The translations under genes and the position numbers were made by a program. Shown piece by piece: positions 12,696-51,779 of a stretch of 51,779 nt of DNA; position 1 is the stretch's first letter, and the number at the start of each line of letters is the position of its first letter. The stretch is taken from NCBI GenBank assembly GCA_026993805.1, contig JALWSA010000041.1:1-51779 (forward strand), read 5' to 3'. The stretch is from Thermotogaceae bacterium. Its GTDB lineage: Bacteria; Thermotogota; Thermotogae; Thermotogales; Thermotogaceae. A model generated the notes under the pieces. The model saw only the letters and a program-made list of their open reading frames with translations, did no database searches and was not told the DNA's origin.

Positions 12696-12988
12696 AAACG
12701 AGAGCTCTGACCCCTCTTTTCACCCCAATAATCTCATCTTTTTTATCATACCCCGCCGCCACTTTTTCTTCAATTTATTCCAAATTCACGATTTTTCCTT
12801 CAAAGCCACATGTTCAACAAAAGCTGAGACATACGATTTCACAATCCTACCGATTATTTTACCTCTTCACACCGCAAATGCCATTCTTTTGAAAACCCTT
12901 CCTTTCACTACCAGGGATTTAGCAATAAATCTTCTTCGTTTTGAGCCCTACCATTTGGTACCATAAGCTATGCAGGGGAGATGAAAAC
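12696..12988. other. Intergenic region without a recognisable gene
   Basis: About 290 bases between the cstA promoter and the molybdenum-hydroxylase gene. It is pyrimidine-rich on the plus strand. I see no RNA gene, no terminator and no convincing promoter for the downstream gene. The one open frame here (12688-12966) has no ribosome site and an unlikely composition. Confidence 0.5.
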
Positions 12989-15244
12989 GTGAAACTCGTG
13001 GGAAGGAAAGTAAAAAGGATTGACGCAATGGAAAAAGCCCTCGGAAGATCGACATACACGCATGATTTCGAGCTTCCCGGGATGCTCTACGGAGCCGTCG
13101 TGTACCCAGGCGTTGCCCATGGGGTTTTGAAAAGCATAGACACATCAAAAGCCAAAAAGGTACCGGGAGTCGCCGCGGTTGCGACGTACAAGGACGTTCC
13201 AAACAACGAGCTCGGTATCGTCACAAAGGACATGCATGTTCTGGTGCCAGTGGGTGGGAAGGTGAGGTTTGAAGCGGACCCGGTGGCTTTAGTTGCAGCC
13301 GAAACAAAGGAGGCTGCAGAGGAAGCCGCAGCTCTTGTGAAATTCGAGATCGAAGAACTACCGCCAGTCTTGACGATAGATCGGGCTTTAAAGAACGACA
13401 TCGTAGTCAATGGCGAGAGAAACGATGCTTTTCACAGAAAAATCAGAAGGGGAGATGTCGAAAAGGCACTGGAAGAAAGTCATCTCGTCATCGACATGGA
13501 ATTCGAAACGGGATACCAAGAGCATGCCTATCTGGAAACACAAGGCGCAGTCGCATGGTGGGATGGAAACACGATGACCATTTGGGGCTCTATGCAATGC
13601 CCTTACTATGTACAGAACGATGTTGCGGAAGTTCTTCGTCTCCCACTTTCAAAGGTTCGGGTAATTCAGCTTGAAACTGGCGGGGGTTTTGGCGGAAAAG
13701 AAGACGTTCCCTCTTATATAGCTGTCAAAGCGGCTCTCCTGTCTTATCTCACGATGAAACCTGTAAAGCTCGTTTACAAAAGAGAGTGGGATTTCAGGGA
13801 AACGAGCAAAAGACATCCGAGCAAGTCGCGCTACAGAGTCGGATTCTCCAAAGACGGAAAAGTTCTTGCGCTCCACGCAACAGTTTATTTAGACATGGGA
13901 GCGTACTCAACTCTCACACCTATAGTCATGTACAGAAGCCTTACGCACGCGGGAAGTGCTTATTCCATAGATAATGTACATGTCGATGTCTACGGCGTTT
14001 ATACGAACAAAGTCCCCACAGGCGCTTTCAGAGGTTTTGGCTCTCCGCAGGTTCTCTTCGCCATGGAAAGCATCATGGACGAAGCAGCAAAGCGCCTTGG
14101 AATAGATCCGCTCGAAATAAGGATGAAGAACGCCCTGCAGCCTGGAAAATCCACGATAACCGGTCATGTTCTGAAAAGCTCTGTTGGAGCAAAGCAAACA
14201 CTAATGGCGGTCAAAAAGGCTTCGAACTACGAAAAGCTAAAGAAAGAAGTCGAAGAATTCAACAAAAAGAGCGTCTTCCTTAAAAGAGGGCTTGGCTGGT
14301 CCCACGTGATATACGGCGTATCTCTTGGCTCAGCAGGCCAGCATCTTGACGCGTCGGCTGCTCAGGTTCACGTGAAAGCAGACGGGAGCGTAACCGTGAT
14401 GATAGGCGGAACGGAGATGGGACAGGGCGCAAAGACTGTCATGGCAATGATAGCCTGCGAAGTGTTGGGATGCGAACTTGAAAAAGTCACAGTCCTTCAG
14501 CCCGATACATCTGTGCTACAGGACAGCGGACCTACTGTCGCATCGAGAACGACTGTATTTTCTGGAAACGCGGTCAAAATCGCCGCCCAGAAGATAAGAG
14601 ATAGGATCGTGGAATTTCTCAAGAAGGAAGGGTATAAAAGCATTGAGATAGGCAAAGGCATCTGGGTTCTGGACGGGGAACACGTTCCATTTGGAGCGGT
14701 AATCAGAAAAGCAAACGATGCCAATGTAAAACTCGTTGAAACCGGATGGTATGAAACACCAAAACTCCACTTCGACCAGGAGACGGGTACAGGAGAGGCT
14801 TATATAACTTACACTTTCTCAACCCAGCTTTCTCTCGTCGAAGTCGATATATTGACGGGAAGAGTACAGGTTAAGGAAGTCTGGGTGTGCCATGACATAG
14901 GAAAAGTGATAAACCCCGATGGGGCAATCGGACAGGTCCAGGGAGGAGTAGTTCAAGGAATGGGGTACGCCCTAATGGAAGAGATAAAGCACGACGAAAA
15001 GGGAAGAATGATCATCAGGAACTTCGACAACTACACTGTTCCGCTCATAACGGACATACCGAAGATAAACGCTATGTTCGTGGAAGAAGAATTTGAAGAA
15101 GGTCCTTTCGGGGCAAAAGGGCTGGGAGAACCCTCCCTCATGAGCTCTCCCCCTTCCATTGCAAATGCTGTTTCCAATGCCCTTGGTGTTAGATTCAATA
15201 GACTTCCAATAACTCCAGAGGAGGTGCTCCTGAAACTGTCATGA
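12989..15244 (+). CDS. Xanthine dehydrogenase/aldehyde oxidase family molybdopterin-binding subunit
   Basis: The 751-residue catalytic subunit of a molybdenum hydroxylase. It has the N-terminal aldehyde-oxidase 'hammerhead' domain (about 10-120), then the molybdopterin-binding domains: GGGFGGKE at 231-238, GAFRGFGSPQ at 345-354, GTEMGQG at 474-480 and GAKGLGEP with the base-catalyst Glu near 714. All key motifs are present, so it should be active. Start is the GTG at 12989 after GGGGAGATG. Unusually, no FAD subunit, 2Fe-2S subunit or cofactor-maturation gene is next to it; remA follows with an overlapping start. Substrate cannot be assigned: purine, aldehyde and nicotinate hydroxylases share this fold. 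Confidence 0.92.
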   Translation: MKLVGRKVKRIDAMEKALGRSTYTHDFELPGMLYGAVVYPGVAHGVLKSIDTSKAKKVPGVAAVATYKDVPNNELGIVTKDMHVLVPVGGKVRFEADPVALVAAETKEAAEEAAALVKFEIEELPPVLTIDRALKNDIVVNGERNDAFHRKIRRGDVEKALEESHLVIDMEFETGYQEHAYLETQGAVAWWDGNTMTIWGSMQCPYYVQNDVAEVLRLPLSKVRVIQLETGGGFGGKEDVPSYIAVKAALLSYLTMKPVKLVYKREWDFRETSKRHPSKSRYRVGFSKDGKVLALHATVYLDMGAYSTLTPIVMYRSLTHAGSAYSIDNVHVDVYGVYTNKVPTGAFRGFGSPQVLFAMESIMDEAAKRLGIDPLEIRMKNALQPGKSTITGHVLKSSVGAKQTLMAVKKASNYEKLKKEVEEFNKKSVFLKRGLGWSHVIYGVSLGSAGQHLDASAAQVHVKADGSVTVMIGGTEMGQGAKTVMAMIACEVLGCELEKVTVLQPDTSVLQDSGPTVASRTTVFSGNAVKIAAQKIRDRIVEFLKKEGYKSIEIGKGIWVLDGEHVPFGAVIRKANDANVKLVETGWYETPKLHFDQETGTGEAYITYTFSTQLSLVEVDILTGRVQVKEVWVCHDIGKVINPDGAIGQVQGGVVQGMGYALMEEIKHDEKGRMIIRNFDNYTVPLITDIPKINAMFVEEEFEEGPFGAKGLGEPSLMSSPPSIANAVSNALGVRFNRLPITPEEVLLKLS

Positions 15245-34145: not shown

Positions 34146-34216
34146 CTAAAGCCCCCCGTCTTATATAATAGCTTTTGACAAGAATTGTACCATCAAAAAC
34201 GGGAGGGGGGATGGAC

Positions 34217-35164
34217 ATGCTAAGAGTCGCTCTTGTGTGCGATTCAGAGCTGGACGAGCACAAAAAGGAGATGCTCGAAAGCGTAAGGAAAGCCCTTGAG
34301 AAGAAGTTTTCCGTGACCGTCGTTCCATTTAATGAAGACTTCATGAGAAAGATCAAAGGCTTTGACATCGCCTTTAACATGGCCACGGGCGGTGGAAGGG
34401 ATAGCAGGCAGGTGCATGTTCCGGCGATTCTCGACCTTCTGTCCGTTCCGTACACGGCGGCTCCTGCTCTCGCACATGCGATATGCATAGACAAGGGGGT
34501 CACAAAGGCCGTCTTGATGAGCCACGGGATAAGCACCGCCGGGTTTTTCGTAGTGCATCCTGGGGAAAAGGTTCCGGAAGATCACGGTCTTAACTACCCA
34601 CTCATAGTAAAGCCCCTAAGAGAAGGAAGCTCGAAAGGGCTCAGAAAAGAGTCCGTTGTGAATGACATGGATTCTCTCGTGAAGGCAGTTGAGTGGGTGC
34701 ACGAGACTTTCAACGAAGGAGCGCTCGTTGAAGAGTTCATAGAAGGAACGGAAGTTACCGTTGGGCTTCTTGAGAGAGAAGACGCAGTAGAAGTCTTGCC
34801 GCTCCTTGAGATAGATTTCTCTGGCCTTCCGGAAGGTGTTGAGCGCTTTTACTCTGACAGGGTGAAAAATCAGGGTCTTGATGTTTACATAAAATACATC
34901 GCACCCGCAAGGCTTCCGGAAGATCTTTACAAAAAGGTGGAAGAAGCCGCGAGAAGGGCTTTTAAAGCACTTGGGCTGAGGGACTACGCGAGAATGGATT
35001 TCAGGATAAAGGATGGGCGCTATTACATACTGGATGTGAATTCTCTGCCGCTTCTCGTTCCAGAGTACTCCGATATAACGAAGATGGCGAAAGCCGCGGG
35101 AATGAGCTACGACGATCTCGTTCTCTCGATAATAGAATCTGCCATAAGGCGTTATGGACTCTAA
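34217..35164 (+). CDS. D-alanine-D-alanine ligase-like ATP-grasp protein
   Basis: A 315-residue ATP-grasp enzyme of the Ddl fold, which joins a carboxylate to an amine via an acyl phosphate. The N-lobe has FNMATGGGRDSRQVHVPAILDLLSVPYTAAP, where true Ddl has a HG..GEDG-type motif; this divergence suggests a different substrate. ATP-grasp pieces are YPLIVKPLREGSSKGL, ALVEEFIEGTEVTVGLL, YARMDFRIKDGRYYILDVNSLPLLV (the metal-site DVN). Start ATG 34217 lies after GGGAGGGGGG. First gene of an overlapping four-gene run with an APS-kinase-like, an amidohydrolase and an NAD-synthetase-like gene. Confidence 0.85.
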   Translation: MLRVALVCDSELDEHKKEMLESVRKALEKKFSVTVVPFNEDFMRKIKGFDIAFNMATGGGRDSRQVHVPAILDLLSVPYTAAPALAHAICIDKGVTKAVLMSHGISTAGFFVVHPGEKVPEDHGLNYPLIVKPLREGSSKGLRKESVVNDMDSLVKAVEWVHETFNEGALVEEFIEGTEVTVGLLEREDAVEVLPLLEIDFSGLPEGVERFYSDRVKNQGLDVYIKYIAPARLPEDLYKKVEEAARRAFKALGLRDYARMDFRIKDGRYYILDVNSLPLLVPEYSDITKMAKAAGMSYDDLVLSIIESAIRRYGL

Positions 35165-35663
35165 ACTCATCTTGATAACCGGTCTGCCCGCTTCTGGAAA
35201 GACGACCCTTGCAAGAGAGCTCGAAAAAGCCCTGAAAAGTAGCTTTTGCACGCTATGGCTCGATGGATACGAGCTAAGAAAGATCTTTGGCCATGAAGAG
35301 ATGAGCGAAATGGCGGCAAGAAAGATGGAAGAAGTTCTTCCACGCTTTCTTGAAGTGTTGAAGGGAAAAGGGCTTTTAATCATCCTTTCGATCGTTGCGA
35401 GCAAAGAGAGCTTTCGAGAAAGGCTTCTTGGCTTGATGGAGAGCGTTCATGTGCATCTTGTGTGCGGTGAAAGGATCAGAAGACAGAGAGATGCAAAAGG
35501 GGTGTATGATAAAGCAATAGAAGGGAAGATATTTCTTCCGGGCTTTTCAGAAACCTACGAAGAGCTAAAAGATGCGGATCTTTTTCTTGACACGACAGGG
35601 CTTTCCATTGATGAAGAAGTCCGGGCGGTTTTGAAGCTTCTGCGGGAAAGAGGGTGGATCTGA
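35154..35663 (+). CDS. Adenylylsulfate-kinase-like P-loop kinase
   Basis: A 169-residue P-loop kinase resembling APS kinase (CysC) at reduced length: Walker A GLPASGKTT at 10-18, TLWLDGYELRKIFG (the DGD-type motif, here DGY), the hydrophobic strand LLIILSIVASKESFRERL, and a lid-like RRQRDAKGVYDKAIEGKIF followed by LPGFSETYEE and LFLDTTGLSIDE. The last two match the CysC pattern with a DPKGLY/FTGIDDPYE-type motif. No sulfate-assimilation genes are nearby, so the real acceptor may be another phosphoryl substrate. It overlaps the ATP-grasp gene by 11 bases. Confidence 0.8.
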   Translation: MDSKLILITGLPASGKTTLARELEKALKSSFCTLWLDGYELRKIFGHEEMSEMAARKMEEVLPRFLEVLKGKGLLIILSIVASKESFRERLLGLMESVHVHLVCGERIRRQRDAKGVYDKAIEGKIFLPGFSETYEELKDADLFLDTTGLSIDEEVRAVLKLLRERGWI

Positions 35664-36994
35664 TGTTCGATCTTGCGATAGTGCGCGGTTTTGTTTACAG
35701 ATCGGGTGACTTTTTCAGGGAGAATGTTTACATAAAAGGCGGCAAAATAGCGGCGGTGACTTCGGAAGTTCTGGAAGCAAGGGAAGTTTACTCGGCGGAC
35801 GGGCTCTGGGTGCTTCCGGGTTTCATCGATCCACATGTTCACTTCAGTCTCAGGGTTGGAAAATGGACATCGGTGGATGACTTTTTTAGCGGTTCTGTGA
35901 GCGCAGCCTTTGGAGGAATAACGACATTCATAGATTTCATAGATCCTGTGAAAAGCGTAGCGGAAATGGAAGAAGCGTTTAAAAGAAGGCTCGAAGAGGC
36001 AAAAAGCAGTGTGGTCGACTACGCTTTTCACGCAACGATAGCGTCTCCCACCGACGCGCCGGGAGATATCGCTTCGAAGGCGAAAGAGCTCGGTATGGCG
36101 AGTATAAAGCTTTTCACTACATATTCTTCGAGCAACAGAAGAACCTACGATGATTACATAGAAGAACTCTTAAGGCTTTCATCCGAGATGGAATTCGTTG
36201 TGGTTGTTCACGCAGAAAACGACGAGATAATAAAGAAGATGGAAGGAAAGAATGTACCGCCAAAAGATCACTCCAGGGCAAGACCGACCATTGCAGAGCT
36301 TTCAGAAGTCCTCAAACTTGCCGCGATGGCCAAATACCACAAGGGTCAGCTTTACATAGTTCATATCTCGAGCGGGATTACGGCGAAAGAGATCTGGGAA
36401 AGGTACGGCGACATCCTTGGGCTCCATCTCATAACCGAGAGCTGCCCGCACTACTTCTGGCTCGACGAGAGCGTTTATTCAAGGGAAGACGGAAAGCTCT
36501 TTTTGATGACACCGCCGCTCAGGTCTTTGGATGAAGTCGAAACACTCAGGGACTACTTCGATGCGATAGTCACGATAGGCACGGATCACTGCTCTTTCAT
36601 GCGAAAGGAAAAGATGGAAGGAAACTTCACACATGGAATTCCCCAGGGAATAGGCGGAGTGGAGTTCTCCTTCAGTCTGATGTACACACTCTTTGGGCCA
36701 GGCGTGATAGACAAGTTCACAAAAAATGTGGCCAAAGTTTATGGTCTTTATCCCAAAAAAGGCGTGATAGAAGTTGGAAGCGATGCAGATCTTGTGGTTT
36801 TCGATCCGGATGAGCGCTGGTTCGTCCAGAGCCACCACAGCCGCTCGGATTACGATGTCTACGAAGGGCTTGAGCTTCACGGCAGGGTTATCACGACACT
36901 CTCAAAGGGAAGGTTCGTCGTTAAGAACGGTGAGTTCGTTGGTGAAAAGGGCTGGGGAAGCTTCCTTGAGAGGGAGGCGATAAGATGGCTTTAA
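35663..36994 (+). CDS. Dihydropyrimidinase/hydantoinase-like cyclic amidohydrolase
   Basis: A 443-residue amidohydrolase-fold enzyme. The binuclear metal site looks intact: His58 and His60 (DPHVHF), carbamylated Lys149 (ASIKLF), His183 (VVHAEN), His234 (IVHISSG) and Asp308 (GTDHCS). C-terminal SDADLVVFDPDERW is typical of the dihydropyrimidinase/hydantoinase/allantoinase branch. It would open a cyclic ureide or amide. Start is ATG 35663, overlapping the previous stop (TGATG) with GAGGGTGG upstream. Its 3' end overlaps the next gene by 10 bases. No other pyrimidine- or purine-degradation genes are adjacent. Confidence 0.88.
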   Translation: MFDLAIVRGFVYRSGDFFRENVYIKGGKIAAVTSEVLEAREVYSADGLWVLPGFIDPHVHFSLRVGKWTSVDDFFSGSVSAAFGGITTFIDFIDPVKSVAEMEEAFKRRLEEAKSSVVDYAFHATIASPTDAPGDIASKAKELGMASIKLFTTYSSSNRRTYDDYIEELLRLSSEMEFVVVVHAENDEIIKKMEGKNVPPKDHSRARPTIAELSEVLKLAAMAKYHKGQLYIVHISSGITAKEIWERYGDILGLHLITESCPHYFWLDESVYSREDGKLFLMTPPLRSLDEVETLRDYFDAIVTIGTDHCSFMRKEKMEGNFTHGIPQGIGGVEFSFSLMYTLFGPGVIDKFTKNVAKVYGLYPKKGVIEVGSDADLVVFDPDERWFVQSHHSRSDYDVYEGLELHGRVITTLSKGRFVVKNGEFVGEKGWGSFLEREAIRWL

Positions 36995-37863
36995 GCGGTG
37001 AGTTTTCACCTGAAAGAGAAGTGGAAAGGATAAGCCAGTTTCTCAAAGACTTCATAGAAAAGAACGGTTTTAAAGGGGCTACCATCGGAATAAGCGGCGG
37101 GATAGATTCGGCGGTTGTTGCCGCGATTCTTTCAAGAGTTTTGCCGAAAGATAGAATAAGGGCTCTGGTGCTTCCCGAAAGGGACTCTCATCCGGATTCG
37201 GTGAAGGACGCAAAGATGGTTTGCGAGAAATACGGTCTTGAGTGTCAAGTGCGGCCCATAACGCCCATTTTGAAGAAACTTGGAATCTACAAGCTCCAGC
37301 CGCCAGCAGCGTTTGTTCCTTACACCGTGAAAGCAAAGTACGCCATGGCGAAGTGGCAGGAGCACGGCCAAGACGCGGTATACGAAAGGGACATAGCGAT
37401 GGAGGGATCCGAAGATTTCTTGAAGGGGATCGCGTACTACAGGGCAAAGCACAGGGTCAGAATGTGCGTCCTTTACATGGAAGCCGAGATGCGTGGATAC
37501 ACGGTAGTGGGGACCACGAACAAAACCGAGTGGATGACGGGCTTTTATGTGAAGTGGGGAGACGATGCAACGGATGTCGAGCCCCTGCTGCATCTTTACA
37601 AAACGCAGGTCTTCGAGCTTGGAAAGTTCCTTCAAGTTCCTGAAAGAATTTTGAAAAAGCCCCCTTCCCCCGATCTCGTTCCGGGCGTGACGGACGAGTT
37701 CGCGCTTGGAATGAAGTACGAAGAGATAGACAGGATACTGATGAAGTTGGAAAAAGGCCAGAGTCTCGATGACGAAGACAGCGAAAAAGTGGAGAGAGTG
37801 AAGAGGTTAGTGGAGCTGGCCGAAAAGAGGAACATGAGGATGGTTAGTTTACTTCAGTCATAG
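36985..37863 (+). CDS. nadE: NAD synthetase family protein (ammonia-dependent type)
   Basis: A 292-residue N-type ATP-pyrophosphatase. It has the P-loop-like SGGIDS at 37-42, the adenylation motif VVGTTNKTEWMTGFYVKWGDDATDVEPLLHLYKTQVFELGKFL, and IILKKPPSPDL-type ending (ILKKPPSPDLVPGVTDE). There is no N-terminal nitrilase domain, so ammonia would be the nitrogen source. The stretch around 88-135 (GIYKLQPPAAFVPYTVK and onwards) is longer than in classical NadE and GTTNKTE replaces GTGNKSE, so a paralogue with another substrate is possible. Last gene of the overlapping run. Confidence 0.82.
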   Translation: MALSGEFSPEREVERISQFLKDFIEKNGFKGATIGISGGIDSAVVAAILSRVLPKDRIRALVLPERDSHPDSVKDAKMVCEKYGLECQVRPITPILKKLGIYKLQPPAAFVPYTVKAKYAMAKWQEHGQDAVYERDIAMEGSEDFLKGIAYYRAKHRVRMCVLYMEAEMRGYTVVGTTNKTEWMTGFYVKWGDDATDVEPLLHLYKTQVFELGKFLQVPERILKKPPSPDLVPGVTDEFALGMKYEEIDRILMKLEKGQSLDDEDSEKVERVKRLVELAEKRNMRMVSLLQS

Positions 37864-50617: not shown

Positions 50618-51100
50618 ATGTTGAGGAGTATTCTTCAGAACAAATTCGACGAATTTTTGGAGATCCTGCAGTACGACAAAACGCAATGGCACGAATTTTG
50701 GGAGAAATATCGCTCCCGCTATGGTCCCATTATACCAAGCTATGAGAGACTGCACGGACTCGACAGAGAAAAGATAAAAAAGCTGCTTGAAGGGTTTTCA
50801 CGACCTTTCTTGGACAGGCTCAAGCAGGAATGGGAGAAGATGCGATTTGAAGGTAAGAGGAGAGTAGCCTTCAGGCTGCGTGAAAGAGCGGATGAATTAG
50901 AGCTTTCGAATGAAGATTTCGTTGTGTTTCTTTTCGGAGGGCTTGGGATAGCCACTTTCAGCGTTGTGGATGGGATAAAGGAAAAGGTGGTGTTGATAGA
51001 TTTAGTGAAGGTTTGGAAAGATGGGAGGCTCAATAAGCTTGATGATGTTGTGCTCGAGAGTGTGAAAAGATTCAGAAAGGGGGAGGCTTATGGGAGTTAA
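50618..51100 (+). CDS. Unknown 160-residue protein in front of argF
   Basis: Not recognised. Soluble, mainly helical and charged (FDEFLEILQYDKTQWHEFWEKYRSRYGPIIPSYERLHGLDREKIKKLLEGFSRPFLDRL). A C-terminal mixed region follows (NEDFVVFLFGGLGIATFSVVDGIKEKVVLIDLVKVWKDG) that reads like a small alpha/beta hydrolase-accessory or zinc-protease-inspired fold, without a metal motif. ATG 50618 follows GAGGTGG. Its end overlaps the argF start by 11 bases, so the two are cotranscribed. Confidence 0.6.
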   Translation: MLRSILQNKFDEFLEILQYDKTQWHEFWEKYRSRYGPIIPSYERLHGLDREKIKKLLEGFSRPFLDRLKQEWEKMRFEGKRRVAFRLRERADELELSNEDFVVFLFGGLGIATFSVVDGIKEKVVLIDLVKVWKDGRLNKLDDVVLESVKRFRKGEAYGS

Positions 51101-51779
51101 CCTGAAAGGAAGGTCACTTTTAACGCTTCTTGACTTCACACCAGAGGAGATACGCTATTTGCTGGACATCTCCCACCAGGTGAAGAGGGAGTCAAGGGCC
51201 CGCGAAAAGCACAGAAGATTCGAGGGAATGACGCTTGCTATGCTCTTTGAAAAGCGCTCTACGAGAACGAGGCTTGCTTTCGAGACCGCGTTCACAGAGG
51301 AAGGAGGTCACGCCATATTCCTTTCCAAAAACGACATACAGCTCGGAGCGAAGGAATCCATAGAGGACACGGCGAGAGTTCTCGGAAGAATGGTGGACGC
51401 GATTATGTTCAGGGGCTTCGAGCAGAGGACCGTCGAAATATTGGCGGAGTATTCGGGTGTTCCCGTTTACAACGGTCTAACGGATCTTTACCACCCGACT
51501 CAGGTTCTCGCCGATCTCATGACGATAGAGGAGAACTTCGGTTATTTGAAAGGAATAAAGCTCGTTTTCATGGGAGACGGAAGAAACAACATGGCAAACT
51601 CTCTCATGATAGGAGCCGCGAAGATGGGGCTCCATTATGTGATAGTCTCTCCTGAGGAGCTCAGGCCGAGGAAAGAACTCGTTGAGAAGGTAACGGAGAT
51701 AGCAAAAGAAACCGGAGCAAAGATAGAATTCACGGCCGATGTCGAGGAAGGCGTGAAGGGAGCGGACGTTATATACACG
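51090..51779 (+). CDS. argF: Ornithine carbamoyltransferase (3' end cut off by window)
   Basis: Makes citrulline from ornithine and carbamoyl phosphate in arginine synthesis. The visible 230 residues include the carbamoyl-phosphate loop FEKRSTRTRLAFETA (near 52-66), the ornithine-side MFRGFEQRTVEILAEYS, the His-Pro-Thr-Gln motif YHPTQVLADLMTI, and the second-domain start VFMGDGRNNMANSLMIGAA. About 80-90 residues are missing at the C-terminus. Start ATG 51090 follows GGGGGAGG. Confidence 0.96.
   Translation, partial: MGVNLKGRSLLTLLDFTPEEIRYLLDISHQVKRESRAREKHRRFEGMTLAMLFEKRSTRTRLAFETAFTEEGGHAIFLSKNDIQLGAKESIEDTARVLGRMVDAIMFRGFEQRTVEILAEYSGVPVYNGLTDLYHPTQVLADLMTIEENFGYLKGIKLVFMGDGRNNMANSLMIGAAKMGLHYVIVSPEELRPRKELVEKVTEIAKETGAKIEFTADVEEGVKGADVIYT

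Follow-up and report, generated by a model that had tools for sequence, protein, structure and literature searches.

Among the described systems closest to the locus reported here is the reductive (anaerobic) uric acid pathway, in which HyuA was shown to cleave ureidomethylhydantoin (UMH) and ureidodihydrouracil (5UDU), and in which the SsnA, YgeY, and UacX steps have also been described experimentally (PMC12507026). The cluster reads ygeW-ygeX-ygeY-hyuA-ygfK-ssnA-xdhD in E. coli, with uacX and uacY in C. difficile, and the string "Thermoto" is absent from the main text of that study (PMC12507026). Here we analyzed contig JALWSA010000041.1 of a Thermotogaceae bacterium (the window, that is, the whole stretch of 51,779 nucleotides), which carries four overlapping genes, A to D, encoding a ligase with the Ddl fold, a CysC-fold kinase, a hydantoinase, and a NadE-type amidating enzyme. 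The conserved object at this locus is an A-B-C operon found in a branch of the Thermotogaceae, which D has joined in this genome only. Its neighborhood and co-occurrence make HyuA of this pathway the most likely identity of C.

Taken as a whole, the explanation that we favor, and hold to be reasonably probable, is that C of the A-B-C operon acts as HyuA, that A is a non-Ddl ligase of a B12-mutase module, that B is a kinase for something other than adenosine 5'-phosphosulfate (APS), and that D is an appended amidating enzyme. These results suggest that Thermotogota also possess the recently described reductive uric acid route, its genes being scattered in this lineage. They also expose a conserved, unnamed trio, consisting of a glutamate-mutase-like B12 enzyme, an opine-dehydrogenase-like enzyme, and a Ddl-like ligase, in about half of Thermotogota genomes.

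Conservation of the A-B-C operon

Within the 1.69-Mb source genome (code G000; 69 contigs, 99% complete), the window makes up contig C41. The features of the locus are as follows.

A, 34217..35164, + strand: 315-aa ATP-grasp ligase of the Ddl fold; its Thermotogota family co-occurs with genes for a B12 mutase and an opine-dehydrogenase-like protein
A/B overlap, 35154..35164, + strand: 11 bases
B, 35154..35663, + strand: 169-aa P-loop kinase with the CysC fold that has lost the APS-binding motifs
B/C stop/start overlap, 35663..35663, + strand: 1 base (TGATG)
C, 35663..36994, + strand: 443-aa hydantoinase with an intact metal site; groups with the HyuA proteins from uricolytic clusters of Thermotogota
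C/D overlap, 36985..36994, + strand: 10 bases
D, 36985..37863, + strand: 292-aa amidating enzyme of the NadE type, similar to PRK00876, with an insert in its middle; a Thermotogota-wide paralog

The overlaps of 11, 1, and 10 bases between these four open reading frames (ORFs), reported in an earlier reading of the letters alone (the sequence-only reading), are exact by the ORF coordinates. An in-frame ATG at 34211 provides an alternative start for A, and 34217 is better supported by the GGGAGGGGG stretch. No promoter or terminator signals above chance were detected between A, B, C, and D, and an Rfam search of the window gave zero matches.

The A to D proteins were examined by profile searches of Pfam and NCBIfam, and their genes were followed through a comparison set of 103 Thermotogota genomes (identified by G codes). 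The A-B-C order, with genes abutting or overlapping by a few bases, is kept in G097, G098, and G099; in G087 and G088, A adjoins C and B is located elsewhere. The A-C adjacency is found in six genomes from three genera while both flanks change, and because the flanking genes differ between the three genera, the A-B-C unit itself is what persisted. D is adjacent to A-B-C (or A-C) in none of the five relatives, and the complete A-B-C-D order occurs, among the genomes searched, in this one only. As to the gene order singled out by the sequence-only reading, its A-B-C part holds in other genomes and its extension to D does not. A three-gene operon at the family level is supported, and a four-enzyme pathway is not.

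The hydantoinase and its probable role in uric acid breakdown

C matches Amidohydro_1 (7e-22) and D-hydantoinase (2e-92). The alignment contains all of its metal-site residues, namely, HxH, the Lys of IKLF, VHAEN, HISS, and GTDH, which bears out its initial description as a cyclic-ureide-type hydrolase with an intact metal site. Homologs of C outside its own family are 36 to 57% identical, and their neighbors are YgeY, a YgeW-like carbamoyltransferase, SsnA, and a UacX-like dehydrogenase, so that Thermotogota relatives of C lie in ygeY-ygeW-hyuA-ssnA-uacX clusters. The YgeY proteins of these clusters score above the NCBI cut-off and are 48 to 72% identical to E. coli YgeY, and the YgeW-like carbamoyltransferases are 32 to 41% identical to E. 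coli YgeW. When 19 genomes were searched for C, SsnA, YgeY, and UacX, all four were present together in 15 and jointly absent in 4 (in G088, which is included in this count, YgeY is a contig-edge fragment only). The source genome holds the remaining three on separate contigs, with SsnA at C28:7611, YgeY at C64:50625, and UacX at C37:16168. C would open the ureidomethylhydantoin or ureidodihydrouracil ring to give 2,3-diureidopropionate, and the other steps found (UacX, SsnA, and YgeY) would in this lineage be supplied from these other contigs. C probably acts in a pathway that has been described elsewhere and is now seen in Thermotogota; in the collection of papers searched, none was found on Thermotogota with SsnA.

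A search for a YgeX-like gene in the source genome yielded nothing beyond weak matches to pyridoxal phosphate (PLP) enzymes. In relatives, the gene after UacX encodes a threonine-synthase-like PLP protein, and similar proteins occur in the clusters of G029, G020, and G052; this protein may replace YgeX.

Varying sets of YgeY, YgeW-like, HyuA, SsnA, UacX, and xanthine dehydrogenase parts are clustered in many Thermotogota (loci L115 to L122 and L125, in G040, G043, G053, G083, G009, G004, G029, G020, and G052). The window itself contains, at 12941-15241, a xanthine-dehydrogenase-family molybdenum subunit that scores 524 bits with the XdhA model, below the cut-off of 780, and that is possibly part of the same purine route.

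The ligase and its conserved partners

A matches Pfam Dala_Dala_lig_C (4e-33), and its structure model (pLDDT 94) has only Ddl or Van-type ligases among its 50 best structural matches. In a tree, the Ddl of this genome and E. coli DdlB fall on one side and the A-type proteins on the opposite side (support 100/99). In the alignment A does not conserve E15 (E. coli DdlB numbering), which we take from established knowledge of DdlB to serve the first D-Ala site, with R259, N275, and S285 serving the second. The canonical Ddl is encoded separately (C15, 312 aa), as is a glutamine-dependent NadE (C59, 593 aa), so that A and D are extra paralogs; these are the second ddl and nadE for which the sequence-only reading had proposed to look. 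With a separate Ddl present and E15 missing from A, we rejected A as the main Ddl, and the description of A as a Ddl-like enzyme that is not Ddl proved sound. We infer that A is an ATP-dependent amino acid ligase with a non-Ddl first substrate; it would follow the Ddl mechanism, in which an acyl phosphate is formed and then attacked by an amino acid.

The partner of A across the phylum is a fused B12-dependent mutase. Among the 103 genomes, both are present in 53, A only in 3, the mutase only in 12, and neither in 35 (Fisher p = 7e-14, from presence lists compiled by genome searches at set score thresholds, in genomes that are related and so not independent). The two genes are usually adjacent, together with an Octopine_DH-domain (opine-dehydrogenase-like) gene, in many families. 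In the source genome, the mutase and the opine-dehydrogenase-like gene lie on another contig (C28:25088-27789), where the module to which A belongs, comprising a carbon-skeleton mutase and an opine-dehydrogenase-like reductase, is found. The mutase (~540 aa) combines a B12-binding domain with a glutamate mutase E fold in its model (pLDDT 83), which matches the glutamate mutase E chain 1cb7_B (E = 3.5e-16, TM 0.57/0.64). A literature search for a cluster of ATP-grasp, opine dehydrogenase, and B12 mutase genes found no description of this module in the collection of papers searched. The mutase may rearrange an amino or dicarboxylic acid, the opine-dehydrogenase-like enzyme may reduce or condense it, and A may ligate the product to an amino acid. 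That this is a Thermotogota-wide pathway, and that in some Thermotogaceae the A-B-C operon has tied it to uric acid breakdown, B adding a kinase step, is a possibility that we put forward tentatively.

Units of the opine-dehydrogenase-like gene and the fused mutase, usually with an A-type ligase, were seen at L102, L103, L105, L191, L202, and other loci. In the Thermotogaceae family of the source genome, the pair is preceded by a gene that by eye resembles a nucleotide-sugar dehydrogenase (L149 to L152 and the source genome's own C28). The hydroxyacid dehydrogenase encoded near YgeY in G083 and G009 was rejected as a link, since it shares only ~30% identity with its counterpart next to the opine-dehydrogenase-like gene. 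G097 and G099 carry a second A-type ligase copy, 53 to 56% identical to A, beside ABC transporter genes (L098 and L099). Ddl-like matches also occur within open frames of 638 to 679 aa (G089:C24, G092:C1:340740, G094:C3:144460, and others), which suggests that some Thermotogota genomes encode a Ddl fused to another protein.

Outside Thermotogota, relatives of A are 32 to 40% identical and are mostly tandem ATP-grasp pairs, seen in Ignavibacteria, Bacteroidota, Gemmatimonadota, and others (L214 to L250). None of these relatives adjoins C, D, the mutase, or the opine-dehydrogenase-like gene.

The kinase and the meaning of the operon

B matches Pfam APS_kinase (7e-18). In an alignment with E. coli CysC and three Thermotogota CysC proteins, B and four relatives lack DGDN, ENIRR, and SPY, and on these lost motifs B was rejected as an APS kinase. 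The sequence-only reading had described a CysC-like kinase without sulfate genes around it; consistent with this, no sulfate activation genes were recognized among the window ORFs (the genome was not searched for cysN/D), and the genome gave no second CysC-like match. Close relatives of B (41 to 48% identical) are confined to three genera of its own family, and the substrate of B would be some small molecule that is not APS. Purines are faintly hinted at by the setting of B in G087 and G088, behind ABC transporter genes that include a PnrA-like receptor. A, B, and C may be connected chemically as well as genetically.

Several observations weigh against the explanation that we favor. C falls below the NCBI dihydropyrimidinase cut-off and is 31% identical to E. 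coli HyuA, so that orthology rests on neighborhood and co-occurrence. The contig of the source genome ends just past UacX, where any PLP gene would be hidden. A carbamoyltransferase at 51090-51779, truncated by the window end, is 23% identical to E. coli YgeW and likely ArgF; we rejected it as YgeW on this identity, and the genome itself was not searched for YgeW. The A-B-C unit is found in one family only. The co-occurrence of A and C over the phylum was not statistically significant (p = 0.10), so that A need not serve uric acid breakdown, and because the counted genomes are related, the Fisher p-values overstate.

The most probable of the rival explanations is that A, B, and C are neighbors by history only, in a small operon inherited within one family whose members serve unrelated pathways. 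Across the phylum A is tied to the mutase but not to C, which fits this account, as does the position of B behind transporter genes, outside the operon, in G087 and G088. The persistence of the A-C adjacency in six genomes and three genera despite changing flanks argues against it, and we regard it as rather unlikely.

Poorer still are the prospects of an account in which A ligates an intermediate of the urate route made through C (diureidopropionate, albizziin, or 2,3-diaminopropionate) to another amino acid, while B activates or salvages a purine-derived compound. Besides the adjoining positions of A and C and the PnrA-type transporter set ahead of B in G087 and G088, it can draw on the position of SsnA, ~4.4 kb behind the mutase in both G097 and G099; in the source genome, SsnA and the mutase share a contig. 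However, A and the mutase occur without C in one family (f2), and C occurs with neither of them in genus g32 of family f10, which makes this account distinctly unlikely.

The NadE relative

D matches Pfam NAD_synthase (6e-61) and reaches 202 bits with TIGR00552, passing the cut-off of 63.65, and falls below the cut-offs of PRK13980 and PRK00876. It keeps the NadE catalytic motifs SGGxDS and GTxxxxE in the alignment. The unusual mid-region noted in the sequence-only reading is an insert of ~35 to 40 residues relative to E. coli NadE, common to the Thermotogota D proteins aligned, and the NCBIfam subfamily PRK00876 aligns this region in one stretch. D would convert a carboxylate and ammonia to an amide, most simply deamido-NAD to NAD, and the sequence-only reading's own alternative of an ordinary nadE is likely. 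D was rejected as the sole NadE, given the glutamine-dependent enzyme on C59.

D occurs in ~70 of the 103 genomes, with and without A or C. In G079 and G084, a single gene run comprises D, glycerate kinase, hydroxyacid dehydrogenase, the opine-dehydrogenase-like gene, the B12 mutase, and A; the run in G086 is similar, with another, reversed gene replacing glycerate kinase. D and A come together in two different settings, which may be a coincidence.

A single dedicated four-gene pathway, metabolizing a cyclic ureide or amide with activation by phosphorylation and amidation by D, as the sequence-only reading had proposed, could call on the overlaps and on the shared stretch of D and A in one other family (G079 and G084, and G086 with its reversed gene between), but is very improbable given that D stands apart in all five relatives, is present regardless of A or C, and has the motifs and score of NadE. 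The proposal also fails in that C is best explained by a described pathway and that the conserved partners of A are on another contig. A gene order unique to this organism, combined with the lack of a second nadE, had been named as evidence against that pathway; the order is indeed unique among the genomes searched, but a second nadE exists.

Comparison with known systems

A shares with Ddl the fold (TM ~0.8 to several Ddl structures), the ATP-grasp core, and, in the alignment, the second-amino-acid site residues R259, N275, and S285, whereas neither E15 in the first-substrate site nor position G276 is conserved. B is, like CysC, a P-loop kinase with an RDxKGxYxKA-like segment, and the two resemble each other in the C-terminal part; unlike CysC, it has lost DGDN, ENIRR, and SPY and scores 59 to 67 bits against NCBI cut-offs of 127 to 163. 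D has the SGGIDS, GTTN..E, and TDE motifs of NadE (PRK00876/TIGR00552) and differs in its mid insert and in being an extra copy beside a glutamine-dependent NadE. The partner mutase of A, encoded outside the window, resembles the glutamate mutase E chain in its barrel and the B12 domain of D-ornithine aminomutase in its N-terminal cobalamin domain fold, but joins both parts in one chain, at an identity of ~16%. Compared with the reductive uric acid clusters of E. coli and C. difficile, the genes of the source genome are scattered and its HyuA candidate shares an operon with ligase and kinase genes; like those clusters, the genome holds SsnA, YgeY, and UacX, with a xanthine-dehydrogenase-family gene in the window, and C matches HyuA by its neighborhood in other Thermotogota.

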